DNA of 64,000 nt from Tetraselmis striata (Eukaryota > Chlorophyta > Chlorodendrophyceae > Chlorodendrales > Chlorodendraceae). Position numbers and translations under genes: made by a program. The DNA lies in the NCBI GenBank assembly GCA_006384855.1, contig VCJN01002357.1, positions 124,001 to 188,000 of the forward strand. Direction: 5' to 3'. Each line of letters opens with the position of its first letter. Position 1 is the first letter of the stretch. This document shows positions 1-45,962 of the stretch, piece after piece. Under the pieces are notes generated by a model. That model had not been told where the DNA came from, did no database searches, and was given only the letters and a program-made list of their open reading frames with translations.

Positions 1-1260
1 GGCGGGCCGGGGGGGGTCTGCACACACTGAACAAGCACTCACATTCTTCCTACGAAAGCATGATTCGCAAGAAACTGCCGAACCCTTGCCCATCTAGGAC
101 AAAAACACATGTATCACGAATATGAGCAGAACGACTGGGGGAAGTGTCGCTTCAAAACGCTCCCGGAAAGTCTCTTAATATCATGCGTTTCTTATTATAT
201 ACCCATGAAAGTGCGTCGGCACCTCTACTGCCAATTCGTCGGACTATCAAATAAAGAAACTGCTCACACAGACGAGGGGAGATTACGCAGCAGCACATGT
301 ACTTATTGTGTCACACAATGAGCACACGAGGGTTTGTATGCATTTACAGGTTTTCAGGCAACGGCACAAAGAGAGGGCCCGGATGAAAGGTTTCAGCAGA
401 GGGCATCGACCGGGAGCCTCTCCACAGAGGAACAGCTGCTACAGATCGTCGCTATGACCAGGTGTTGCTGCCACCCTGGAGCGCGTTACGGGCATGGGCC
501 CCTAAAGATAGGGTGCTGAGGAACACCGTCGAAACCGCACGAAACTTGTTAAATCTCGCGCGCTTCATGGGGCACGATGTAACCAAAGAAATGCTACTGC
601 TTTCATTTGCTCACCTGGCTGCTGGGCGTATCCAATATGCTGTCACCGTTCCCACGCCCCGGTCTCTGCGCTGGCCCGGCTGTTGGCACAGCGCCGGGGA
701 CGCAGACACACAGGGGTTACGCGTGCCCACGCACACCCCTGCACGAGTATGGACAGGCATCATATGACCAAGCGGGGGGCATGACGGTGGACACATGATC
801 AGAAATGAAGCACTATTACTGCACTATTACTGCATGTGGCAGCATCTCCTGCTCCCGCCATCATCACAAGTGGTGAGATGCCTAGATATTTCCTTCACTG
901 CCTATCGCTACATAGCAGGCGACCGGGGCAACATGCACTGGACTGGGCGTTGGTGACTCGCTGCGGCGGCCAGAGATGGTGACTGGGGCCATGGTCACGG
1001 TCAGCGGATCTCGTGGCCCCTGTGGTGCGGCACCCGCCACTGGGCCGGCTCAGCCCTGCGATGCCCCTCCGCCGTCCGTTGCAGCTCCTGCACGAGGTTG
1101 AGACCAGTCACTCGCGGGGGTGGCATCGGCGGCCTCCTCCTCGACCCCGGACGGGTGTGGCGCATCCCGCCCAAGCCGCGCTGCCAGCGCTGTCTTGAGC
1201 TTCTGCAGCTCATGGCCCTTGACGATCCTGCAGTAAACGCCCAAACCGGCCGGCCAGCTC
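1..1260. other. Spacer, no gene recognised
   Basis: I see no supported gene. Open frames overlap on both strands, are short, and have no recognisable domain. The stretch ends at the stop codon of the minus-strand GT29-like gene, so its right part probably holds the 3' untranslated region and terminator of that gene. Confidence 0.4.
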
Positions 1261-3609
1261 TCAGGTTGGGTGAATGCCTGGCGACGCTGCATCCCGGCAT
1301 TTCATGCAGGATTGATTGCGCGCAATGGGCCGCTGGGCTTGATTTATGGCAATGCCAATGGAAGCCAATGGTTTGGATTCGGCAATGGCTTGGACAATGC
1401 GCATTGAGCTTTGCCCGCAAGGGAGAGATGGGTGGCGTTTTGGGTGAGGCGGCACTGACCGGAACGCGTCGTAGCGCTGCTCGTACTGCGCGGAGCAGTG
1501 GTGCTCGGCGCCCCAGCCGTGCCGCTGTTCAAACGGCTTTGTCGTCGTGCTCGGCTTCTTGTGGTAGTAGTGCGTCGCAGCCTGGTCAAAGCCATAGATG
1601 GACACCTGGCAGGGGAAGCAGCACCGCAGGATCAGCATGTACTAGCACCGCCCTTTCCTAAGGAGCCCGAGACGGACCGATGGCACATCCAGCCAAATCT
1701 GGGGCAAATTGCGACCGATGGCACATCGCACCTCCCCGCAGAGGTGAAGCGCCAGGAGGGTGCCGAAAAAGCCGGCACTGGTGTCCACGTGCCCGGAGGT
1801 GTTCCAGTGGTGGCCGTCGACGTCCACGGAGGAGTGGTTGTAGAACTCGGGCTGCATGAACTTGCGCACGGCGGCGTGTACCTGGTCGCTCAAGGCGACC
1901 AACGGGCAGGTGCGCCCCTCGGTGGGGTGGCACCTGTGCTGTGTGGAAAACTGTGCGCAGCCCAGCGCATGAAGGCAAGCATGAGTGTTCATTCTCATGG
2001 AGTGTTAATAAACGCTTATTGATATACCCACTCGTGAATTGCAGTCGCTTTGTTCGGCACTACCAGCGTTAATTCGTGTTATGTTTCTCACTGATACTCT
2101 ACACCAACAACATCGGTGGAATGAGTAGTCAATGCAGCGAGATGCAACTGAACATGCGCATGTTCATGCCCAGAAACAGAAACAGCATCAATGCCAGGGA
2201 AGCCGTGGCGTTGGGCTGAGGGGGGCACAGAGCAGGGGACGGGGCGATCTCACCTCGGTGTATGGTGCGCACATCTCCTGCTTGCCCTCGTTGAAGCCGC
2301 AGTACCTGGGTCCACATGGGCCTTTGCTGGTGTGAGGGGGGCGGCTTGACGTAGCTGAACAGGGAGGAAATGGTCCGCCATGGCAGGCGGCATCTTGCAG
2401 AGGTCCTTCCACATACCATACAGGGCAGCGGTGTTGGCGATGTGAGTGTGTGCGCGCTGGGGGGGGGGGGGGGGGGGACTCACACATTGTTTTGGATGCG
2501 GAGCGTGGTGCGCGAGCCGACGTCCCGCTCAAAGCCGACTGTGGGCGCGTCATTGAAGCGGATCCAGGCGGTATGCGCCTCGTCGATGACCTCGCCCATG
2601 CCAGACCCTATTGCAGCAGCAGGGGCAGCGGCGGGCCGCATCGGCTATGCACTCCCCAGTCGCAACTCCTAATGATAAACAACTGTTCTTCCTGAGTGCC
2701 CCCGTCTGACCGAGGGGCCACATGCCCCCCCCCCCCCCCCCCCCCCAGCTTCCCGCTCCGCTGCGGCAGTTTACGGTTGGAAACTCCCTCGGCCTCAGGC
2801 AGGCACTCCAGCTGCCCACTTCGTACCGGTCAGACTGCCGGAGCTGCCGACCAGCGCGCAGGAGGTCCAGTCCGCGTAGTAGGGCAGGTCAGGCCGTGTC
2901 TGCGTCTTCTGCCTGCCCGCACTCACGGCGGCCCAATGGTAGACGCCCCATGTCTCCGGTGCCATGCGGAAACTGGTCGAGGTGAAGCTCGTGTCCTTGA
3001 TGGTTTCCCGGTCGATGCCCTGAGCGGTAGCGCAGGAGACAAGGTGCGCCCCCATGTCAGGGGCGCTCAAGATGCACGGCCCTGCAAGGCCGCGGGGCTG
3101 CTGCGCCTGCCGGGCCCACCTTGAACTTGGGGTCGAATATTGACTGGAAGCAGTGGCGCGATAGCTCCGGCGCGTCCTCCCACAGGGCGGCCGGCTTGGC
3201 GGTGCACTGCCGGGGTGGCATAAGCGATTTTTAAGAATGCAGGGCGGGTGGCCGTCGGCTTTCGGCATGAGACGTGTGAAGGCGGGCGTGGCGGTGCGAC
3301 GCGACGCAGGGCAGGGCTCCCGCGCACCTCGTCGTCTCCGGAAAGCATGGCGGGGCACGCGCAGCGCCCTTCCAGGCAGCTGTGCCGCCCGCACTGCTGT
3401 TCGCATGGCCGGGTGTGCGCGCCGATGCAGGTCATCTGCGCCTTGTCGATGCAGGCATTGGCGCAGCGGATGAACTCCCTCCCTTGGCCCTCCTTCCGCC
3501 GCGCTCGGCAGCGCCCCTGACACTTGGCCAGCATTGCAGGGTAGCAGAACTGCAACTCCCTCTGCAGAGGGGCGCGGGAGGAGGGTGGGATGTTGGTCGT
3601 GGTGGTGGT

Positions 3610-5975: not shown

Positions 5976-7178
5976 TGGACAAAATGCGGCTGTGATCGTT
6001 GCACGCGCATGCGGGAGAGAGTTCTCGCGACCTCCTGGCCGTAGGGCAAACTATTCTATAGTAGTGCATGGCCACATGGCTCATGGCCATGCTCGCGCCA
6101 TGGTGAGCCAAGTGTTGGGACGGCAATGGCGTGCACCCTGATGATGCGTCGATGCTGGTTGGAATATTGATGTCAAAGGGGGATCCGGCATAAAGCGGCC
6201 GTGGGCATCGCTCAAGGGGGGGCATGTGCCAAGTACGAGTGGTCCGTGTACGAGTACACGCAAGACGGTGTCCCGTCATCGTGTATCATGTTTCGAGATC
6301 CATTTGGCGACGAAACAGTTTCATGCCAAAGTGTTGATCACACGCTGACACATGCGTCATATTTCGACCTGTTATTTCTAAAACCTCGAAAGTGACGGAT
6401 TGACCTCATACGACCGTGCCGGAGCTGACCGAATTGTAGCTCTACTCGCGTAAATTCAACTGGCATTTATATCAAATTTTTTGACGTTTCTTCGCAACGC
6501 ACCGAGCGATACCGCGAGTTTGAGAGCTGCGCCACAAGGCAGCACTGCAATGCCGATGGTATCACGCCACATCGTGCACGGGCGCACGCGCCACTATGGC
6601 CCCCACCCCACCCAAAAATCTCTTGGCCTCTTTGCTGACACGTTTCCTCGCCCACCCATGGCCATCCCACCAGAAATGGTCTATCTATACATGCGCGGCG
6701 GGGCGTGCGGGGCACAAATCCTCGTTGTTTTCGGGGTACTGGAAACGCTCGGTGTGGCGCAAATGCCACTCGTGTAGGACACTTGTTAGGGCCAAAGAGC
6801 TTGCTTACACCCTATTGTGATAAAGGCTGAGCATAAATGTGCAACATTCCAGGAATTTCAGGTCATAAACCCTAGGTTCAGCTGCCCTACTTTTCGTAAA
6901 CTCGGCGGATTCGGCGAGATAGGGGCCTAGGACTTATGTAGAGGGGTATAGTCGCAATGAACGTGACCACATGGATGCACGACGCGCGCCGATGCGGTGT
7001 TAATACAATAATGTGTAGAAGCGGAAAATCCTGATACATCCTGCTTTTATTTATATGCATATCAAAGTGAGGCGCGGCGCAGCAGCAAGCGGGGGCGCGC
7101 GGCGCGTCAAGATTTTGGAATATTTTTTTTTATAATAAATTTTAAAAGGAATGTGTAGCGACTGTGTCATGTTTACTC
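5976..7178. other. Spacer, no gene recognised
   Basis: Mixed-composition DNA with short overlapping frames on both strands and no recognisable domain. Around 7080-7145 it becomes very AT-rich just before the left direct repeat of the next element. Confidence 0.35.
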
Positions 7179-7425
7179 CCAGTAGTTATTGGGGTTTCCT
7201 TCCAATTGGCGCGCACTTTGCGCGTTCCCCTGCGACACGCTAATCCACGTGGCGCGTCTGCGGCGCGCGTAGCTACACATCCTAACAAGTATGGGCGTGG
7301 ACCGCGGCACGGCGGACATGCTACGGCACTTAATTTAGATGTATAAAAATGCCGCGACAAACAATAGTACGGTTAACTCCATCACATCGTTAATCGACCC
7401 CGCGCGGGGTAGTATTCAATAACTG
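7179..7425 (+). repeat. Left direct repeat of the broken retroelement
   Basis: Shares with 10764-11010 blocks such as ACACGCTAATCCA, GGGCGTGGACCGCGGCAC and GGACATGCTACGGCA in the same order and orientation. Divergence by eye is near 15-20 percent, so the insertion is old. Confidence 0.75.
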
Positions 7426-8029
7426 CGCTTCATAACTAGCAGCGAGGCGTGGGAGGAAGGCCACTGATCACGTAGGGTCTCCTAGCTCTTTCTCGTCCCC
7501 AAGCATGGTGTCAACAAGTGGCGACTCATCATCGACTTGCGCCCCCTCAACTGGTACTGCGAGGAGCGAAACTTGAGCTTCGAGACCCTCGTCCGGCTGC
7601 GCCATCTAGCTCGACCCGGCGACTACATGTTTGTCCATGGACTTGCAAATAGGTTTCTCCGCCGTTGATATTGCCCCTGAAGACCGATACTACTTCACCG
7701 TCGACTACCGTGGCAATCTCTACCGGGTGGCAGGTAGGGCTTCCCATGGGCTGGAGCATAAGCCCCTACTACTTTTGCTCCATCACGATTGCATTCAACC
7801 GGCATCTCCGCCGCCCCGATTTCACGGTCACCCCCAACGGCGTGCGGCGCGGTCCAAATTCAGCATGTGACGACGCCAAACACTACGCCGACACTTACGT
7901 TATCGTCGAATTCTTCCCTAAGTGGACGACTTCTTGTTAGTTCGCGTCGAGCCGAGCGCGATCCCACTCCGTACGAGACCGCATCGCCTCTCTACTTGCG
8001 AAGGTAGTTAGACGCCCGCCGCCACGCAT

Positions 8030-9430
8030 CGCCCCATGAGGAGCGGAGGATCCTGGGTGCGGTAGGCCCGGCGGCACCACCCCCACTTCCACGTGGTGGG
8101 CGGTGGTGACTTCTAAGACCCGCCGTGCCCGGCTGGGTGCGGCAAGGGGGTGACCATGGTGGCCGGTTGTGGCGGGTCCTTGGATCCTGCGACGACCGGG
8201 GAGCCCTATTGGGAGGGGGGGGGGGGGGGGGTCAAATAATACTCGTGGTCCCGGTAGCGCCTGCTGGCGCCGCCGGGCAGCAGCCCGATACGGGGGGCTG
8301 CTAAAAGTATTTCATGTACGACCTCGGCCTCGCGTCGGCCTCTCGTCCGAGATCCGCCTACTACGGGTGGGGAGGGGTCCGTACGACTCGGACGGGGCCA
8401 ACCTACTCGCGAGGGCTGATCGAAATAAAATCGCGCTTTCGTACCTCGGTACGGCCCGCGACCGACCTGCTGAAGATCTGGCGTTACCCCTACCCGTATG
8501 TGTTCCACCTGTGAATAACTCGAATCCCGGCCTAGTACGGAGTAGTGTTTGGCGGCGCCCTGCGGCCAACCCCGTTCGGAACACCCGGGAAACCCTCAGC
8601 CGTCCCGTGAGAACGGGCGAGGGCGGCGAGTGCGAGGAGATAGGAGCCCGGCACCTAAAGGCGAGGCGGGCGTTGGGGGTTGGAGAGGCCGGGCATGGCA
8701 GCGACTCAGGGGCCAAGAGACAATACATGAGCCGGAGTGCCTTGAGGGAGTCGCAACAATGCAGCGGGAGGAGTCCGTTGGCGGTCAGCTCGGTATGACC
8801 CTGGACAGGCGGCTAGAACGACGAGGCGCACTGCGGAGGCGAGCGGCGCGCAGGCGATCAGGACCGGCCTGCCGACCACGGAGCGACGACGCGCATTTTC
8901 CCCTCACGACCCCCTTGGGGATCCTACCGCAAGAGCTCAGGCGGGGGAGATGGAGGCAGCATGGGCGGACCACGGCCGAGGCCGGCGGACCGCCACAACC
9001 GGCGTGGTGGGCGCGATCAACTAACGCCGCGACCTGCGGGATATTTTCAGCGATGGCGGCAGGAGGAGCCAAGACGCAGCACGACGACCGAAGATTGCGC
9101 GGTGCCGGTCCATTACCAATGTACTGGAAAAACTTTTCGGGGGCGGGGCGAATACTATATTCGTAATCCCCCGACTGTCAATTTGTGGTAGTCGCTCGTA
9201 CCGGCGACGACTACCCGTAGTTGTCCGAAAATAACACAGCTATTGATCGCGTGATGGAAGGAGGCAAGGTTTGGAAACGAAAGGGGATGGCCGGAAGCTT
9301 GAGGTGTAATTACACTATATGTGATCCCAGCTATGGTTAGAGATGGCAGGCCCTGAGAGCAACTCAATCTGGGCGGCGGAGAGCAGCAGACTAACAGGTT
9401 GTAATCAATTTCAATTTGGCGAAGCTTGGC
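8030..9430. other. Probable insertion inside the retroelement
   Basis: GC-rich DNA with a poly-G run at 8214-8230 interrupts the polymerase region between its catalytic box and thumb. I recognise no protein in it, and no terminal repeats were confirmed. The boundaries are approximate. Confidence 0.4.
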
Positions 9431-10763
9431 CTCAGCCGACACCCCCAAAAAGCTAGTGGGAGGCAGTGCAACGGCTTGAACATCTCGGCATGGAGTTCGA
9501 CTCTCAGAAGGGGATGATTCGGCCGCCGGAGCGCAAGCTTGAGTCGCTCTCTGCGACGGCCCTCAGCCTCATCCGCCAAGCGAAACGAGACAAACGATGG
9601 GTGCATGTACGGGAGCTTGCGTCCTTGACTGGGCGAGCCAAGTAGTTCCTCTTTCCTCGCCATCAAGCCGGCCCGGTACTACCTTGGCAAGCTGCACGAC
9701 GTGTGCCTCACCAAGGGCTCGAGGAGCGTACGCGTAAATAAGATAACGCACAAGCTCATGTGTGATGACCTCGAGTGGTGGGCCGAGGTCCCGACAGACT
9801 ATAACGGCCGTTCCATCTAGAAGCCTGTCGATATCGTCTATATGCACGTCGACAGCTCCGGCTATTTGTGGGGAGCCGTCCTAAACGAGATCACCGAGAG
9901 GCGCGGCTTCTAGTACGACGGCGATTGCGGGTTGCACATCACCTACCCAGGAGCTCAGAAGTGCCCGGTACGCCGTGCTCACCTTCCTCTCCGAGCTGCG
10001 GGGTCGACATGTATTGCTCCACGAGGACAACATGAGGGCGGTCCACATCCTCGCCCACCACACCCTAATGCCCCCCCCTACTCATGACAGAGCTACGGAA
10101 GTTGTGGTTCACACTCGGCACCAACGACCCCTCCATTCGCGCGCGCTACATCAAGACCACGACGAATATTTGGGCCGACCGCCCCGGCCGCAAGATTATT
10201 GACTACGCCGACTATAGGCGTTCAACCTCCGCCTCTTCAACCACCTCGACAACATATGGGGCCGCCACACCATCAACTGCTTCGCTACGATGGAGAACGC
10301 GCGGCTCCCGCAGGCGCGACCCCTGCGGTGAGGTCACCGACAGCCTGCGCCTTTCCGACGGCTCTTGGCGTCGCGAGCACAACTAGTGCACGCCCCGTTG
10401 TGGCCTGCCTCCACGACGAATTGGTCATCGCACTCCACACCTCCGGCGCGGCAGCCACTGCCATCGTGCCCTATTGGTCGGACCGGAGCTTGCACCATCG
10501 CCTCTCGGAAATGGCATCCGAGGCGGTTGTCTTCCCGCCCTCCCCGGACATCTTCGCGCCCGGCCGCCTCGGCGTGCGCGACGGCATCGGTCCTCCAAAG
10601 TGGCCAGTAGTCGCGTTTTGACTCCCGCTCCGGGCCCGGTAACCAGAACCACTTTTTGACCGCCCCGCGTCTGCCCCTCGGGCCGGCCGGCGGTCCGGGG
10701 TCCTCGGCGACTGGATAGAGCTCGGCAAACCACACAACCCCCTCCCTTTGAAATGCTTGCTAC

Positions 10764-11010
10764 GTGTAGTTACTGGGGCTTCCTTTCGCCTAGCGCGCAC
10801 TAAGCGCGTTCGCCAGCGACACGCTAATCCAACTGGCGCGCATGCGGCGCATGCAGCTACACATTCTAACAAGTACGGGCGTGGACCGCGGCACCGTGGA
10901 CATGCTACGGCATGAAAACTATACGTGGAAAATGCCATAACAAGAGCACATTCAACTCTGGCACATCGTGGTGAGTCGACCCCGCAAGATGTAGTACTCT
11001 ATAAAAACTA
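10764..11010 (+). repeat. Right direct repeat of the broken retroelement
   Basis: Partner of 7179-7425, in the same orientation and with the same block order. It closes the element on the right. Confidence 0.75.
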
Positions 11011-13544
11011 GCGGACTCTCTGCTGTATGTCCCCATCTTCCATCTCCGCGCCCCGCCTACTATGTTGCGGGCCGCGTCCGCCCTTCTTTCCTCACTTCGT
11101 GCTTTCTGATTCTTGCGGGTTGCCGACATGCTTTTGCCCTATAAAACACTATAACCGAAGGCAGGGCGCGTTTTCGGCAGACCATACACCCCCCCATCCT
11201 TGTGAAATTCGTCGAACACCCGTACATTTAGGTACCCGTACGGGTATATATGTAGCGGCGTTTAGGGTCCCAACGATCGCGCAGCCGCGGCGCGCGGCGT
11301 GGCGGGCGCCCGCCTCGGCGCCGGTGCTGATGGGTCGGCTGACGATTGGAAGACGATGATCCGCTGCCGCTGGCCGCTATAGCTGTCGGTAATTGCACCA
11401 CATGTCTACCTGTCTACCTCTTGCTGCTCGATACTATCATCATTTCTTAATGGGGGGGGGGGGGGGGGGGGAGGGGGGGGCGTAGGGAATATTCACATCG
11501 ACCACACGGGACCCGTGTTATATAATACTATAGTAAGAATATAGATTATTAGTCCCAGTCAATCCTAGGTAGTTCTGTTTATAGCGCGCTTTTTTTGAAG
11601 CCCTGATGTAATGATAAGTGCATCGTCCTAGGTAGTTATTCCTGCTTAGCTGCATTTAAATCACTACCGTGTTTAAAATCACCGAAGTACTCCTTCCCTG
11701 AACTCTACACCATCTGACCGCCGTATACCTGTGGTAGGGATGCAGGGTACCTGTACTAACATTGCGAGTTAACGACTATATACTAACATTTATCCTTCCA
11801 GCACTACGTTATTATTGCTTTGAGAGTTTGAGGATCCGTCCGCCAGGGCGCACACGGGCAAAATAGAGTGGTTTCGGAGCGCGAGTGCTTTGGTCAACTA
11901 TACTCCTAGCGACTACTGAGGGGGGATTTTCTGGATAGAATATGTATGCCTCGATCACATAGATAATACAGCGGAAGAATGCTTAATCATGGGTTGGAGT
12001 AGCTCTCATGAGGAATTGTTAGAACATATAGCTGGTATCAATGCTGAGTACCGTGCGGCCATGTACGAATTATTAATTTATACGGTAAACAAAACCGCGT
12101 GTTATTAATTTTGAATCCCGAGATACGTCATTATGTCACGTCCGTATCTGATGTATTATACCATGCGTAAGCCAACAGTCAATTACGCGGTTGGGGCAGA
12201 TGCTCATTAGTGGGGGAGCAATGATGGGTTACCGATGACAGATTATTTATATATGAAATAGTTCATTGAGTATGATATATATGCTGCACTGAGTTGGTAG
12301 CATGAGGTCGTCTTCTACCCATTAACTTCAGCAGTGTCCTGCATCGCTTAACTCTAGGTCAGTGCTAGCCACCTCACTACTCATAAACGACCTCAGCACC
12401 CGACCAGCCTTCCACAGGGGGATAACATCGTCCCTTTCGGAATGCTGACTTGGCTAGATAGGGAATTCATGGCAGGGCGGAGCCGGGAGGCAGAGATGAA
12501 TTGGGGTGGGTGAAATCGCTAATGAAAATACTTCTGTCTTGCCGGCACTTCCGCGCCAGAAACCCGCCCACGCCCCACCATCATGCGCGGATTACGGACG
12601 GCGTAGCCGTGAATCTGTCCTAAACCTGTCTGTTCCCCTCCTACCGCACTTAAGGGTGCCGCCACGGCGGCCTGGTTGAGCGCGCTTAGGGATGGAGCCG
12701 GTTGAGCTCCGCTCTGGCACCCGTCGGAAATTCGGACTGGCCTCCACCGCCCGCAACGCAGAGCAGTCGGCCAGCCCGTCACGGCTGCGGGTGCAACTCC
12801 TGTGAGTTGCACCGGCCTCCTTGACACTCTGGAGGGGCGGAACATGTTGTGGGGGTGCATGCGTTTGGCACTCAATGGTGGCTAGGGGGCACCGACGTGG
12901 TTGACGGGCCGGAGGTTTTTGAGCTTTAGGCAGGCGATAACATGCTCGCTTGCGGCGGCAGTCATCGCCATCATGGTGGCGACCCTCGTCACCCCTGACC
13001 TCCTGAGCGATATTCCGAATCCTGTCCGGATATATACTGGTTGTGGTCGCATATATGTCTCATAGACGCTCGGCCGCGCCAGTGGGTGGGGTCAAGGAAA
13101 GGGGAGCCCAGCGTTAATTGGCGGTTGATTCCATCGGGCCATGGCCACTTCACCCACATAGTTTTGGTGCCGGCCTCTGAACACTATTTTCCCCCAGGTA
13201 TCCACACAAACCTCCTCATCAGATGCGAAGGCCCCAGGGGACCCCAGAAAATCCAAGAGGTGCGAAAAATCAGGAAGGGTCCCGATTTCTTATGGACGGT
13301 GATGTTATTGTACCGGTAGCGGGTTGTCGAAAGTCGTGTAATGCCGATGTTCAAAGCCATGAAATAGCGGGTGCAAGCACGATCCCCTCACCCATACCTG
13401 CTGATGCCCTCTCTAGAAATTGCTACGAGTACGCTTATTGGGGAGACTAACATCTGGCAGCTACCTGGCTTCAATTGTCCGATCATGCTGTTGATTTCCA
13501 ACATTCATACAGAGACAAGTGGGTCTCCAGCGCTGATGGAGCAA
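11011..13544. other. Long spacer, no gene recognised
   Basis: Contains a poly-G run (11451-11478), AT-rich DNA to about 12330 and GC-richer DNA beyond. Frames such as 12519-12875 (minus) have no recognisable domain. I saw no RNA gene. Confidence 0.4.
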
Positions 13545-33926: not shown

Positions 33927-34790
33927 GCCGCCCTGTTGCGGCTGTGGGGTGCATTGGGCTGCGGGGCCTTCCCCGCCGGCAGACAAAAGCGGTGGCCATC
34001 GTCAGCGCAGTGACCCCCCCCCCCCCCCCCCCCCCCCCCAAGGGTGCTGCAGCAGACCAAACTCGTCGCCCGTAGTGCCATAGCTACGCAAGAACGGCAC
34101 TAGGACACGCTTCAGCCTGAAAGCCTGGTGTATCGTGGCCTCCAGGGCCCCAGGCAGCGTGCAAGCGGGAGCTGAGGGGAGGGGGGGGAGGCGGGGTATC
34201 CAGGATGCCACCAGGGTTTGACCAGGTGCCAGGGGACAGCTCGGCAGGCGTTGACAAGGCCAGCGGGGGCCGGGCCGGGGGCAGGGGGGCAGCTCCCCGT
34301 GCCAATAGGGTTCAGGTACGGGGGCGCGCACCTGCGGCTCCCGCCTTGAGCTCTCCTGCCCGGTATATCGGGATGCCGCCGGGCGCACTGTTCTCGTCCG
34401 TCGGCTGATATGGCCGCAGCGTCGCCATTCCGCCCGCCCCACGCGACGGTAGCCCTCAGCGGTACGTCCGCACGCGGTGAGCAGCAGCCAGAAACCTCGC
34501 CGCCGCTGGCGCACAAAGCTACCCGGTATCGGGAACCACCTCAAGTTGTCTGCTATGGCGGATTAAGTGAGCAGCAGTCAGGTATGGCGCGCCGAATGTG
34601 ACGCAGCAGCGCCTTCTGGTCGCGACAACGAGCATTCCCGGATTCGGCGCCCGCCGCACCGCGCGAGCGACGAGCGAGGCGTAGAGGTATTTCATTCGCG
34701 GGGGCGCGTTCCACGCGCGAAATATCTCGTTGTTAAGTATCACATCCAGCGCTAACGGTTACGGTAACATTATGTTACTGATTGAGTTTT
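33927..34790. other. Spacer upstream of the destruction-box gene
   Basis: Includes a poly-C run (34013-34039). A minus-strand open piece near 34040-34150 (FRLKRVLVPFLRSYGTTGDE) could be an alternative upstream exon but was not joined. GC content falls towards 34740. Confidence 0.35.
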
Positions 34791-34975
34791 GATCTAAACT
34801 AGTTTATGGGGTTTCCATCCTTGACCTAATCGCTTTTCAGCTACAAGTGCTGCGCAGTGGTACGGGAACTAGTAACTGTTGTTGCGCCCTTGTTGGGTGC
34901 AGCACGAGTAGACATAAAAGCAGCCAGAACAGCTGAGCCTGCCATCTTCCAGTTTTCGCTGCGTTCCACGCAGCG
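34791..34975 (+). repeat. Split repeat A1
   Basis: Matches 37711-37895 except at about two positions. It opens near ACTAGTTTATGGGG and closes at TCCACGCAGCG. Confidence 0.9.
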
Positions 34976-35149
34976 ATGTAAAAACTGTCTCGTAACCCGT
35001 TGCGAGCAAGGTCACCCCAGGTTGTTCAAGACCACACCCGGCTCGCCACCCGAGTGTGATATTCTCGTCCGTACGTCCGTGCGTTACTATGTCAGATGGA
35101 GAAGAACCCGTCGCTGAGCCGACGCTGCAGTCGCTGAACGCAGATATAT

Positions 35150-35968
35150 ATGAGGGCCCAGTCTTCATTGCTGCGAGAGCTGGCTACAGCTGTGGCACAA
35201 TTGACGGCTCGTGATAGCGTTGTTGATGGAGAAGGGGCACATGGCTCCGGCTCAGGGCAGCGCTTCGCGAGACAGCCGACAGGCAGCGGGGGAGCCGCAG
35301 AGCGCCCCGACTTGCTAGAGCTAGCCCAGAGCGGCCGTGTCGGAGCAAAATCCGTGAGTGCCGAGGATGATTACCTCGCGGTGCCAGAGCTACTGCAGAG
35401 AGCAGAGTCTGGTTACGAGGCCGTTCGACCGGTCAGCCGAGTGCCTGGACTTTTCCCTTTGAGCACCGACCTAACGAACGAGTACCTCAAGCAGGACGAC
35501 CGGCGTCTGCCGGCCCAGGAGGAGTACTTGTGGATGTCGTGCTTCGGGGCCCACATGGCCGCCCTTTTCGTGGCGCTCGACGAGCTACTGCCCTACGTCC
35601 CTTCCAGCAACCAGGACTTCACCCCCTACCTCGCGAGAGCCCGGAACCACGCCGAGGCCATCGACAAGGCGTTTCGGTTTCGTTTGGCCTTCCTACGGAG
35701 GCTCAATGAGATCAAGCGTGTGCACGGTGACCAAGGTGTTCTGGATGTGCTGCGAGCCCAGCATTTTCAGCCTGCTTCGGAGCATCTGGGTTCCGCGATC
35801 TTTGGGGACCTCATGCGGGACTACGAGCGTCGTGTCTTCGAGGCGACCGTTGCCAGCAGCGCCAAGGCGACCGCTACTTCTCGAGTGGCGGCTGCAGCTG
35901 CAGGTCGCGGGCGTGGGCGAGGACGTGGCGGCGGACGTGGACGTGGCCGCGAAGGTGAGCACGAGTGA
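35150..35968 (+). CDS. Gag-like ORF of the recombinase element
   Basis: 272 residues from ATG. The central part is helical with YLARARNHAEAIDKAFRFRL, in the style of Gag proteins of DIRS-type and other retroelements. The C-terminus is an arginine-glycine run (GRGRGRGRGGGRGRGREG), expected to bind nucleic acid. No zinc knuckle was seen. It lies upstream of the recombinase frame on the same strand. Role inferred from position and composition. Confidence 0.6.
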   Translation: MRAQSSLLRELATAVAQLTARDSVVDGEGAHGSGSGQRFARQPTGSGGAAERPDLLELAQSGRVGAKSVSAEDDYLAVPELLQRAESGYEAVRPVSRVPGLFPLSTDLTNEYLKQDDRRLPAQEEYLWMSCFGAHMAALFVALDELLPYVPSSNQDFTPYLARARNHAEAIDKAFRFRLAFLRRLNEIKRVHGDQGVLDVLRAQHFQPASEHLGSAIFGDLMRDYERRVFEATVASSAKATATSRVAAAAAGRGRGRGRGGGRGRGREGEHE

Positions 35969-36004
35969 CGGTGTGGGGCGCCGTTCGCCGGAGCTGCAGG
36001 AGCC

Positions 36005-37630
36005 TTGCGAGGCCACCTTTCGGTGACCGCTGCAAGACGCACCCTTGCAGCTCAACGGCGGGATGAGCGCCCTGTGTCAGGACCTGACCCCCCCACCTTA
36101 CAGACTTCATTTAGACCTTCCTCGGTGCGGCGCTTCTTACAGCTACAGCCGAGTGCGGCTCAACCATCCGCACACCTGCACATGGCGGCTCAACCATCCG
36201 CCTTTCTTACAACCCCATCTCTGCGTTCGTCGGTTGTTACACTACGAGTTACAACCGGTTCGCAACGACCAAGTTTCGCGCGTGTACGTTACGCACGGGA
36301 CAGGCGCTATGAGCGCGAAGGGCGCGCGGGGCGGCCCTCCTACCTGAACCTAGCCCCGCAAACCCGTACTGGAGCTACTGCAAACCCGTCCAGCAACTAC
36401 CGGCCAACCGCCGGGAACCTAACCGCTGCTGCCGAGTACTTTGCGAAGAGTAGCCGTGCCGGTGGAACTCTGTCAGTAAAACGACGCACTTACGTAATCG
36501 ACGAGCCCGCAGCTGTCGCTCCGTGGGCTGCGTCACTGCGATCCCGACTACATGACGCGTTCGGCTCAGACGAGCTAGGCCAGCGGACGCTCGACCTGCT
36601 CTCCAGCTCTCTCAGCGCTCAGACCCTCAAGAGCTACGCCGGCAGGTTGGCTCAGTTCGCTGAGTTCTGCCACGACTCCGAGAACATCAGCCCGCTAGAG
36701 GCGACTACTGCTACTGTTGTTCGGTACGTTGCCTGGATCGGAGAGCGAGGGCATATCGCAGCTAAGTCGCTGCAGCCCTATCTGTCTGCCATCAACACCT
36801 TCTTCGAGCTGCACAACCTCGTCCCGATCGCCAAGGACAGCCTACACCTCACTTCGGCAAGACGTGGGTTAATGTTACGTCAGCGTCGACTGGACGCTGC
36901 CCCTTTGCGTGTCCCTCTGCCTGCGGATGTAGCTTACCGCTTCGTCTCAAAGGCCGAGCTAATTGTGTCTGCTCCTTACCCAGAGTCCCACCTCGACTAC
37001 CGAGCCCTCTTGGCCTCGGTTGTCAACTTCCTGTTCTTTGCCAGGGGCCTTACTGGCGTCTCCTGTCGAGTGCAAGATGTGCATGTCGACACCTACAACA
37101 TCACCTTGCAGATCTACCGCGAGAAGGGTCGCGCCGGCCGGCGGGGACCTGACGACCTGCGCGTACTTCTCCTTCCAGTGTCCGAGCACCCTCGAGTGGC
37201 ACGTCTCTTGCGCTACTTCATCGACAACGTCCAGTCTGTCCCCCTGGTTACTGTTGGCTTGGCTACCTCCAACTTCTGGGCTGTCAATGTGGCTGAGCAG
37301 TCGAAACCTTGGACTGCTACTACGATGTCAGACTGGTTGTCTACAGCAGTCAACCTAGTCAACGCTGCCCCCCCTGCTGGCACTTCCTGGACTTCACACA
37401 GTCTACGCAAGGGCGCAGCCTCTGCAGCAAACGCCATTGGAGCGCCACTGTCCCACATCCGCTACCAGGGCGGTTGGGCCACTAACTCTGATGTCGTTCT
37501 GGACTACATCGACCCCAACGTTCTTCCTTCTCCTGACGCGTGGTTCTTCTTTGGACACATCGCCCCCCTCCGCCACTTCCAAGTCCAACAGGACTCCGCA
37601 GCGGTGGCCTTCCCAGTGCCTCCTTCATGA
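36005..37630 (+). CDS. Tyrosine recombinase of the element
   Basis: An open frame of 541 codons; the first in-frame ATG lies well inside, so the true start is uncertain. After a basic, proline-rich N-terminus, the SAM-like core-binding domain starts near TLKSYAGRLAQFAEFC. The catalytic domain has the first arginine in FFARGLTGV, the HxxR box in HSLRKGAASAANAIG, a GGW at the second histidine/tryptophan position, and the tyrosine in VLDYIDP. These fit the R-H-R-Y layout of DIRS, Crypton and phage-type recombinases that cut and rejoin DNA through a phosphotyrosine. Confidence 0.85.
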   Translation: MRGHLSVTAARRTLAAQRRDERPVSGPDPPTLQTSFRPSSVRRFLQLQPSAAQPSAHLHMAAQPSAFLTTPSLRSSVVTLRVTTGSQRPSFARVRYARDRRYEREGRAGRPSYLNLAPQTRTGATANPSSNYRPTAGNLTAAAEYFAKSSRAGGTLSVKRRTYVIDEPAAVAPWAASLRSRLHDAFGSDELGQRTLDLLSSSLSAQTLKSYAGRLAQFAEFCHDSENISPLEATTATVVRYVAWIGERGHIAAKSLQPYLSAINTFFELHNLVPIAKDSLHLTSARRGLMLRQRRLDAAPLRVPLPADVAYRFVSKAELIVSAPYPESHLDYRALLASVVNFLFFARGLTGVSCRVQDVHVDTYNITLQIYREKGRAGRRGPDDLRVLLLPVSEHPRVARLLRYFIDNVQSVPLVTVGLATSNFWAVNVAEQSKPWTATTMSDWLSTAVNLVNAAPPAGTSWTSHSLRKGAASAANAIGAPLSHIRYQGGWATNSDVVLDYIDPNVLPSPDAWFFFGHIAPLRHFQVQQDSAAVAFPVPPS

Positions 37631-37683
37631 CTTGGCGCTACCCCTTCTCCGTCAATCCACCGCTCTCTCCGTTCGCTCAAGAC

Positions 37684-37709
37684 TGGCAAAACCAGACTCA
37701 ACTTTGAAA
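37684..37709 (+). repeat. Split repeat B1
   Basis: 26 bases, beginning TGGCAAAACCAGACTC, identical to 37989-38014. It abuts A2. Confidence 0.85.
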
Positions 37710-37710
37710 T

Positions 37711-37895
37711 GATATAAACTAGTTTATGGGGTTTCCATCCTTGACCTAACCGCTTTTCAGCTACAAGTGCTGCGCAGTGGTACGGGAACTAGTAACTGTT
37801 GTTGCGCCCTTGTTGGGTGCAGCACGAGTAGACATAAAAGCAGCCAGAACAGCTGAGCCTGCCATCTTCCAGTTTTCGCTGCGTTCCACGCAGCG
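37711..37895 (+). repeat. Split repeat A2
   Basis: Near-identical partner of 34791-34975, lying between B1 and B2. Confidence 0.9.
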
Positions 37896-37988
37896 CCCCC
37901 CCTGACTCCGTTTTCCCTCCACGCTTTTCGCTAAACCTTCCTGCCAATTTCGGCTCTTGACCGTGTAAAACAGCCTGCGCGACCTTTT

Positions 37989-38014
37989 TGGCAAAACCAG
38001 ACTCAACTTTGAAA
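37989..38014 (+). repeat. Split repeat B2, right end of the element
   Basis: Identical to B1. Sequence beyond it shows no further repeat of internal parts, so the element is taken to end here. Confidence 0.8.
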
Positions 38015-45199: not shown

Positions 45200-45330
45200 A
45201 ACGCTCATGGGCAGTTTTGCTCATGGGCAGTTTTAAGGTTTTCATGTACAAAAATGGGCATGAGCAGAAATGGGCAGTTGCTCATGGGCAGAAATGCTCA
45301 TGGGCAGTTTTAAGGTTTTCATATACAAAA
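45200..45330. repeat. Short tandem repeat (GCTCATGGGCAGTTTT-like)
   Basis: The phrase GCTCATGGGCAG recurs about five times, twice followed by TTTTAAGGTTTTCAT.TACAAAA. It is immediately left of the ~237-bp tandem array. Confidence 0.8.
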
Positions 45331-45339
45331 TCCACAAAG

Positions 45340-45962
45340 TACCATCAGTGCATCAATGCTCAAAGGCGTCAGGAGCCCATGATGAAAGAGACTGACTCAG
45401 AACAAGCTCGCCTCAGGGGGCTTCATTCTCAGACCAAGTGCTGAAAGGTCAGCAAGGTCATATCATAAAAGCTGATGGCAGCTATCAACCAGCGCTGATT
45501 CAAACATCATATATGCATCATACGCACAAGGCCTCACCAGCACGATCAGCGGCGGGCATAATTACAGTCAACCAAATATCATCCGTGCATCACTGTACAA
45601 GGGCGCGCCAGGAGCCCATGATGAAAGAAACTGACTCAGAATCAGCTAGCCTCAGGAGGCTTCATTTTCAGACCGAATGCTGAACGGTCAGCAAGGTCAT
45701 ATTACAAAAGCTGCTGGCAGCTATCAGCTAGCGTTGATACAAAATCATATATAAACATCACACTCATACGACATCAACACATCAGCAGCGGGCGTAAATA
45801 TAATCATCCAAATATCATCAATTGCATCAATGCAAAAAGGCGTCAGAACCCAAGGATGAAAGAAGCTGAGTAAGAGTCAGCTAGCCTCAGGGGGCTCCAT
45901 TTTCAGACCAGATACTGAACGGTCAGCAAGGTCATATCACAACAGCTGGTGGATGGCATCAT
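45340..45962. repeat. Tandem array, unit about 237 bp, about 2.7 copies
   Basis: Unit starts at about 45364, 45602 and 45839. Each holds GGAGCCCATGATGAAAGA or a variant, CTAGCCTCAGG.GGCT, GGTCAGCAAGGTCATAT and CATCA-rich sequence. It may be part of the surrounding retroelement (for example its untranslated region) or an independent satellite. Confidence 0.85.

Follow-up and report, generated by a model that had tools for sequence, protein, structure and literature searches.

A split-repeat tyrosine recombinase element of Tetraselmis striata that appears to lack a reverse transcriptase of its own

A passage in PMC4157794 presents retroelements with a tyrosine recombinase (YR) as the presumed union of a Crypton-like recombinase with a Gag-reverse transcriptase (RT) unit of the long terminal repeat (LTR) type. 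Here we describe an element of 3225 bp in a 64,000-nucleotide stretch of Tetraselmis striata DNA (contig VCJN01002357.1, positions 124,001 to 188,000, forward strand), which is called the window in what follows. The element occupies window positions 34790–38014 and has the order A1, ORF1 (open reading frame 1), YR, B1-A2, B2, where A and B are direct repeats. Like Ngaro and VIPER/TATE it has a Gag-like ORF, a YR and split direct repeats, but these encode RT-RNase H and the window family does not, and the combination typical of Ngaro, RT-RNase H without a methyltransferase, is thus absent. Of the features of PAT-like elements it has the split repeats and the YR and lacks RT-RNase H and the methyltransferase, and we therefore regard it as a variant of PAT-like elements rather than a full member. 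Cryptons carry a YR without a polymerase, as the window family does; they have no long direct repeats, the terminal ones being of 4–6 bp in several groups or absent according to PMC3212892, in agreement with an earlier sequence-only reading of the window, whereas the window family has split direct repeats of 186 nt and 26 nt and a second ORF under selection. We favour, with moderate confidence, the view that it represents an RT-less PAT-like lineage (DIRS order) with its own Gag and YR under selection, which would use an RT in trans and integrate by its own YR.

Among non-autonomous retroelements without a polymerase ORF, those of plants that keep a gag domain are known as TR-GAG. The TRE5-A.2 element of Dictyostelium has no ORF2 and is mobilised in trans, according to an extract of PMC5633606. 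These are LTR or non-LTR elements, and the window family differs from them in also keeping a selected integration enzyme. No RT-less element with Gag and YR was recognised among the titles and abstract openings listed for PubMed Central papers on elements of the YR and DIRS type, on split repeats and on non-autonomous elements, a scope outside which Repbase and most of the subscription literature lie.

Layout and coding capacity of the element

The features of the window copy, all on the forward strand and with B1, A2 and B2 placed by repeat comparison, are as follows.

34790–34975, forward strand: A1 terminal repeat, 186 nt, starts with TGATCTAAAC and ends in a hairpin; same start in 30 copies
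35150–35968, forward strand: ORF1, Gag-like, with a Gly/Arg-rich C-terminus; open frame of 276 codons in this copy
35966–35968, forward strand: in-frame UGA between ORF1 and ORF2, followed by CGG (UGA-CGG at 35966–35971)
35969–37630, forward strand: ORF2, 553 codons, tyrosine recombinase in residues ~184–540, with SHSLRKG and GGW...DYID boxes
37684–37709, forward strand: B1 repeat, 26 nt
37710–37895, forward strand: A2 repeat, 186 nt, adjoining B1 without a gap
37896–37988, forward strand: spacer between A2 and B2
37989–38014, forward strand: B2 terminal repeat, 26 nt

The sequence-only reading had placed a PAT-style A1 ... B1-A2-B2 layout at 34791–38014, and mapping of the repeats upholds the layout, with B1 abutting A2 exactly, and the right end, while the start had been set one base late. 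A1 and A2 differ at 2 of 186 nt, close to the 2 of 185 sites estimated before, and B1 and B2 are identical over their 26 nt. The B1-A2 junction reads as the sequence that would be expected of joined element ends, that is a B2-A1 circle joint. The end of A1 (34910–35000) is predicted to fold with a z of -3.2, and CATAAAAG, located 55 nt upstream of the end of the A repeat, may be a TATA-like promoter motif.

The frame of ORF1 is 322 codons long in nearly all of the best 142 scored matches, and is shorter in the window copy because of 4 extra bases near its start. ORF1 matches no Pfam family above the cut-off and shows a weak similarity to ORF1 of RT1, an RT-bearing relative in the same genome that is treated below, with an E value of 0.094 in BLASTP; in hhalign the same pair reached a score of 25.3 (E 0.0083, probability 4.8%), where 20 shuffles reached at most 19.4. 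A single-sequence fold prediction gave a mean confidence score (pLDDT) of 43.6. The frame proposed as Gag-like in the sequence-only reading is thus present, and its identity as Gag is weakly supported by its position, the Gly/Arg-rich tail and the similarity to the ORF1 of RT1.

ORF2 matches the phage-integrase SAM-like family of Pfam with an E value of 6e-8, which bears out the tyrosine recombinase predicted before, and Phage_integrase with 1.3e-3, below the cut-off of that family, and it weakly resembles Cre in the region of the HSLR and Y boxes (best E 0.009). The SHSLRKG and GGW...DYID boxes presumably have catalytic roles. No RT, RNase H or methylase (MT/Dam) family of Pfam was matched in ORF1 or ORF2, which rules out an RT hidden inside either frame and leaves the YR as the only recognisable enzyme of the element. 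Among the 30 copies fetched from the genome ORF2 is open over 553 codons after the TGA in 28, stops at codon 455 in one (L030) and is not readable by the TGA motif used in the remaining one (L022), and 77 of the best 78 scored YR matches, a sample biased by being the best-scoring, are without a stop.

A single TGA separates ORF1 from ORF2, which share a frame, an arrangement common to RT1 and to an older family member of 83% identity, and TGACGGTGTGG around this TGA is found in the window family (29 of 30 copies), the older relative and RT1. In the older copy ORF1, UGA-CGG and the YR are in one frame, which is broken further on. UGA-CGG is among the readthrough contexts of RNA viruses given in PMC3542737, and readthrough leading to a Gag-YR fusion is plausible.

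A family without room for a reverse transcriptase

The genome (224 Mb in 2903 contigs, with a GC content of about 58% near the copies) was searched for further copies, as the sequence-only reading had suggested. The search gave 41 scored DNA matches, namely the window copy, 38 further full-length matches, of which 37 are at 99% and one is at 83%, and two fragments, which makes 38 full-length matches at 99–100% with the window copy counted. At least 78 YR and at least 142 ORF1 matches were scored genome-wide, best matches first, and a 33-mer across the B1-A2 junction occurs exactly 670 times, the reversed pattern not at all. No relatives were confirmed in viral contigs. The 30 best-matching copies that were fetched differ by 0.4% on average and have constant ends in different flanks, and all 30 show the A1 ... 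B1-A2-B2 layout and a pyrimidine as the first base downstream of B2. The flanking duplication is 0 bp in 21 copies, 1 bp in six, 2 bp in one and 3 bp in two, and there is no consistent target site duplication among them. A1 and A2 are identical in 27 of the 30. The repeats and the leader are poor in variants found in a single copy (A1 three, A2 one, leader none, B1 and B2 none, A2-B2 spacer six) relative to the ORFs, with 41 in ORF1, of which four belong to the insertion of the window copy, and 59 in ORF2. The family has expanded recently. The window copy itself, which had been taken to have moved recently, is among the more diverged, with 26 differing columns, including the 4 of the insertion near the ORF1 start, and a median of 6 in the other 29.

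As a test for an RT, exact markers for ORF1 and for the junction were paired and the distance between them was measured; on contigs C2–C441 73 ORF1 markers gave 55 pairs, the 18 markers without an exact junction marker being left unjudged. In 53 of the 55 pairs the span is 1864–2023 bp, typically 1990 bp, and there is therefore no room for an RT in these copies, as had been claimed for RT and RNase H in the window copy. The span on C389 is 8759 bp and contains a strong RVT_1 match in a frame of 1553 codons, which we interpret as a Gypsy-type insertion, and the span on C29 is 10611 bp with the ORF1/ORF2 boundary marker kept. An exact 33-mer across the ORF1/ORF2 boundary occurs 166 times, less often than the ORF1 33-mer with its 489 occurrences; since 20 of the 53 copies of normal spacing have it and the other 33 do not, its rarity reflects sequence variation and not an RT. 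A genome search with RVT_1 gave 150 scored matches, all high-scoring and mostly in long polyprotein frames, and could not rank RTs of the DIRS type.

The older copy of 83% identity lies on C1898. It shows the A1-ORF1-ORF2-B1-A2-B2 order of the family, likewise with no RT, and the A1 and A2 within it have diverged to 89% identity. Between a family copy and this older copy the ratio of non-synonymous to synonymous change (dN/dS) is 0.17 in ORF1 (3 stop codons dropped), 0.32 in codons 1–183 of ORF2 (1 dropped) and 0.15 in the YR part, codons 184–553 (2 stops and 20 gapped codons dropped). The first 72 codons of ORF2 show no sign of selection in their changes, with 6 synonymous and 9 non-synonymous changed codons. 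The corresponding ratio among the 30 copies (pN/pS) is 0.23 for ORF1 and 0.35 for ORF2. The older copy has itself decayed, which contributes to the divergence, and selection on the active lineage is therefore, if anything, stronger. The simplest reading of these comparisons is that an RT-less ancestor persisted long enough to leave a mark of selection on both proteins. A simple recent deletion of an RT-bearing element is ruled out by the older RT-less copy together with the purifying selection on both proteins.

Relatives, passengers and arrays in the genome

The contig that carries the older copy also holds an RT-bearing relative, and a genome search with the RT of this relative gave 93 scored matches. 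RT1, represented by copies L039 and L040, is 4.9 kb long and has A repeats of 181 nt and B repeats of 27–30 nt, with 302 bp from the start of A2 to the end of B2 and 305 in the window element. It carries an ORF1, an RT frame of 849 codons and a YR, the YR lying in the ORF1 frame behind a single TGA and the RT in an overlapping frame; the RT frame matches RVT_1 with 9.7e-12, and RNase H and Dam below the cut-off. RT1 shares with the window family the A1 ... B1-A2-B2 layout, nearly equal repeat lengths and spacing and the ORF1-UGA-YR arrangement in one frame, but it has an RT, an RNase H and a weak Dam-like match, all three missing from the window family, and its A repeats differ in sequence. 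We read RT1 as PAT-like from its layout and domains rather than from a tree.

Comparison of the YRs was confined to those of the host genome, and the nearest of those compared to the window YR is that of RT1, with 39% identity over 361 residues (E 2e-75). Two other families with polymerase parts are not detectably close: the YR of L045 on C793, in a family with an RT and a Dam-like domain, scores 50 against the window YR where the best of 200 shuffles reaches 56, and the YR of L046 on C1324, for which the RNase H/Dam end of pol and the YR frame were fetched, gives a tblastn E value of 0.23. The B repeats of RT1 and the window family are alike (z 4.59, none of 1000 shuffles reaching the score), the A2-B2 tails score 78 where 300 shuffles give at most 70, and the starts of the A repeats have a z of 2.63, with 10 of 1000 shuffles reaching the score. 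The window element is by these comparisons related to RT1 without being a deletion of RT1 itself, and judged by the YR, the joint and the layout it probably descends from the same stock. The RT-bearing relatives found have similar but different repeats, and full-length RT-bearing relatives with the same repeats, of which the window copy would be a simple internal deletion, were not found in the genome.

The window holds a second, decayed element, W2, with the following features.

7169–11207, forward strand: W2, decayed element
7169–7422, forward strand: A1
7447–7978, forward strand: RT pieces
9439–10633, forward strand: RT/RNase H/Dam pieces
10724–10753, forward strand: B1
~10754–11004, forward strand: A2
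~11176–11207, forward strand: B2

The RT/RNase H/Dam pieces of W2 are 36–57% identical to the pol of RT1, and no match to Gag or YR was found in it at E ≤ 1. The RT homology starts 24 bases after A1 and the Dam homology ends 90 before B1. A1 and A2 are 76% identical, and the element is broken by several frameshifts and, over about 1.5 kb, by an interruption at ~7980–9430. The start of its A repeat resembles that of the window element (A1 z 4.95, 0 of 1000 shuffles; A2 z 3.43, 7 of 1000) and is nearer to it than that of RT1, while its B1 (z 4.71 against the B of the window element) is no nearer than the B of RT1. W2 may be what deletion has left of an ancient complete element, or the second component of a split system.

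Shorter elements with similar ends are also present. One of 1.86 kb has RT1-type ends and broken pieces of ORF1 and YR (two copies opened), and a family of about 2.5 kb, bounded by ends like those of the window element, showed no similarity to Gag or YR in three opened copies. The pattern of the A start gave 375 matches, with 24 same-strand pairs at 1956–2147 bp among the 100 places listed. Larger spacings in the passenger family are 6269 bp in L043 (C579:28200–34900), where an inserted element has direct repeats of 216 bp at its ends and no match to the proteins of RT1 or of the window family, 8889 bp on C55 and 10110 bp on C63. These passengers suggest that an element needs no more than its ends to be moved in trans, and that ORFs are lost from passive derivatives in this genome, which is not so in the window element.

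On C764 (L044, C764:24600–34500) there is a tandem array with units of about 3203 bp, in which B2 is fused twice to an A1 without its first 17 nt, and which looks like circles with imperfect joints inserted into a resident copy. Tandem arrays with a spacing of about 2916 bp on C2249 and C348 consist of A-interior-B units with one common joint. On C1898, C1077 and C1452 (L034, L035 and L027) copies of the family, the older relative and the passengers stand head to tail in the same orientation with gaps of ~80–325 bp that differ in sequence, closer than we would expect by chance, the expectation being by eye. The host genome contains many long polyprotein frames with RVT_1, and L031 (C619:19500–28900), a further family copy, has at 426–3251 on the forward strand a frame of 942 codons that by eye is RT-like of another kind. 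A tandem repeat with a period of 239 and 2.6 copies is found at 45329–45952 of the window.

Possible modes of movement

An RT-less lineage with a borrowed RT would move as follows. Transcription would start inside A1 and stop in or before B2, Gag would package the RNA of the element, and an RT/RNase H supplied by RT-bearing relatives such as RT1 would copy it. The internal B1-A2 unit would then template the missing terminal sequences and close the circle, which the YR of the element would insert without target duplication. With transcription starting inside A, most of A would be restored from A2 in each cycle. In the model for Ngaro and PAT elements the internal B1-A2 unit supplies the terminal sequences that the RNA lacks. 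According to PMC6681497 this model implies nearly identical A1/A2 and B1/B2 at insertion. The RNA route with a borrowed RT is favoured because A1 equals A2 in 27 of 30 copies, the repeats are poor in variants and A would be restored from A2; the selected ORF1 and the maintained identity of A1/A2 and B1/B2 would indirectly speak for a cycle through RNA and cDNA. The element would retain what makes it specific, namely a Gag, a YR and split repeats of its own, and perhaps take the methylase in trans as well. Of the two possibilities raised in the sequence-only reading, a polymerase borrowed in trans gains from a PAT-like family that is abundant in the same genome, bears an RT and has the nearest YR of those compared, while a separate DNA-only class has become the less supported.

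Such a DNA-only, Crypton-like element, in which the YR excises a circle and reinserts it and ORF1 and the split repeats are remnants or have another role, is unlikely. In its favour, the YR is the sole recognisable enzyme, 53 of 55 judged copies have no room for an RT, consistent target duplications are missing, and Cryptons are proposed in PMC3212892 to move as circles. The fusions on C764 also show that B2-A1 joints form. What it accounts for poorly is the purifying selection on ORF1 (dN/dS 0.17), the identity of A2 and B1 to A1 and B2, kept although a DNA circle needs no second internal joint, and the nearest YR of those compared being in an RT-bearing family. To our knowledge there is no need for ORF1 in a DNA-only element. 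We consider it quite improbable that the family is an ordinary non-autonomous derivative, produced by deletion in an RT-bearing element and moved wholly in trans with its ORFs as passengers. The 1.86-kb derivative of RT1 with broken ORFs and the passenger family of about 2.5 kb exist alongside it, and some family copies are damaged (L031, L033), but coding capacity is maintained, with ORF2 open in 28 of 30 copies, 77 of the best 78 YR matches stop-free and a dN/dS of 0.17 in ORF1 and 0.15 in the YR part; moreover the RT-less layout predates the present burst, and no RT-bearing parent with the same repeats was found in the genome. There is an even slimmer chance of a split retroelement, in which the window family gives Gag and YR, a W2-type partner with similar ends gives RT-RNase H-methylase, and neither moves alone. 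W2 does have RT/RNase H/Dam between A1 and B1-A2-B2 and matches neither Gag nor YR, the start of its A repeat resembles the window element more closely than that of RT1 does, and both halves occur in one genome, even in one window; W2 is, however, one decayed copy that may be a deleted form of an old complete element, and its B1 is no nearer to the window element than the B of RT1 (z 4.71 against 4.59).

Several observations weigh against an RT-less lineage served by an RT in trans. No direct trace of an RNA intermediate was seen, the intact B2-A1 joint has no exact occurrence in the genome, and DNA recombination could also account for the homogenisation of A1 and A2, given the tandem arrays with a spacing of about 2916 bp. 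The whole A repeats of RT1 and the window element score 82.5 (shuffle mean 72.7, maximum 99.5) and are not alignable above shuffles, so the RT of RT1 would have to accept a foreign template. The identity of ORF1 as Gag is weakly supported, and the window family and the older copy might have lost an RT in two independent events, which is less likely. Among three further copies opened outside the best YR matches L032 is whole and open, L033 has its ORF2 split by a frameshift and L031 is without a right end, and since fetching and scoring took the copies that match the window best, diversity and damage are understated.

If an RT-less lineage with a borrowed RT is the true account, a successful and selected lineage with Gag and recombinase and no RT would represent modules coming apart again. 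It would give a natural test of whether RT serves in trans in the DIRS order, and would mark a plausible passage between retroelements and YR transposons devoid of RT.

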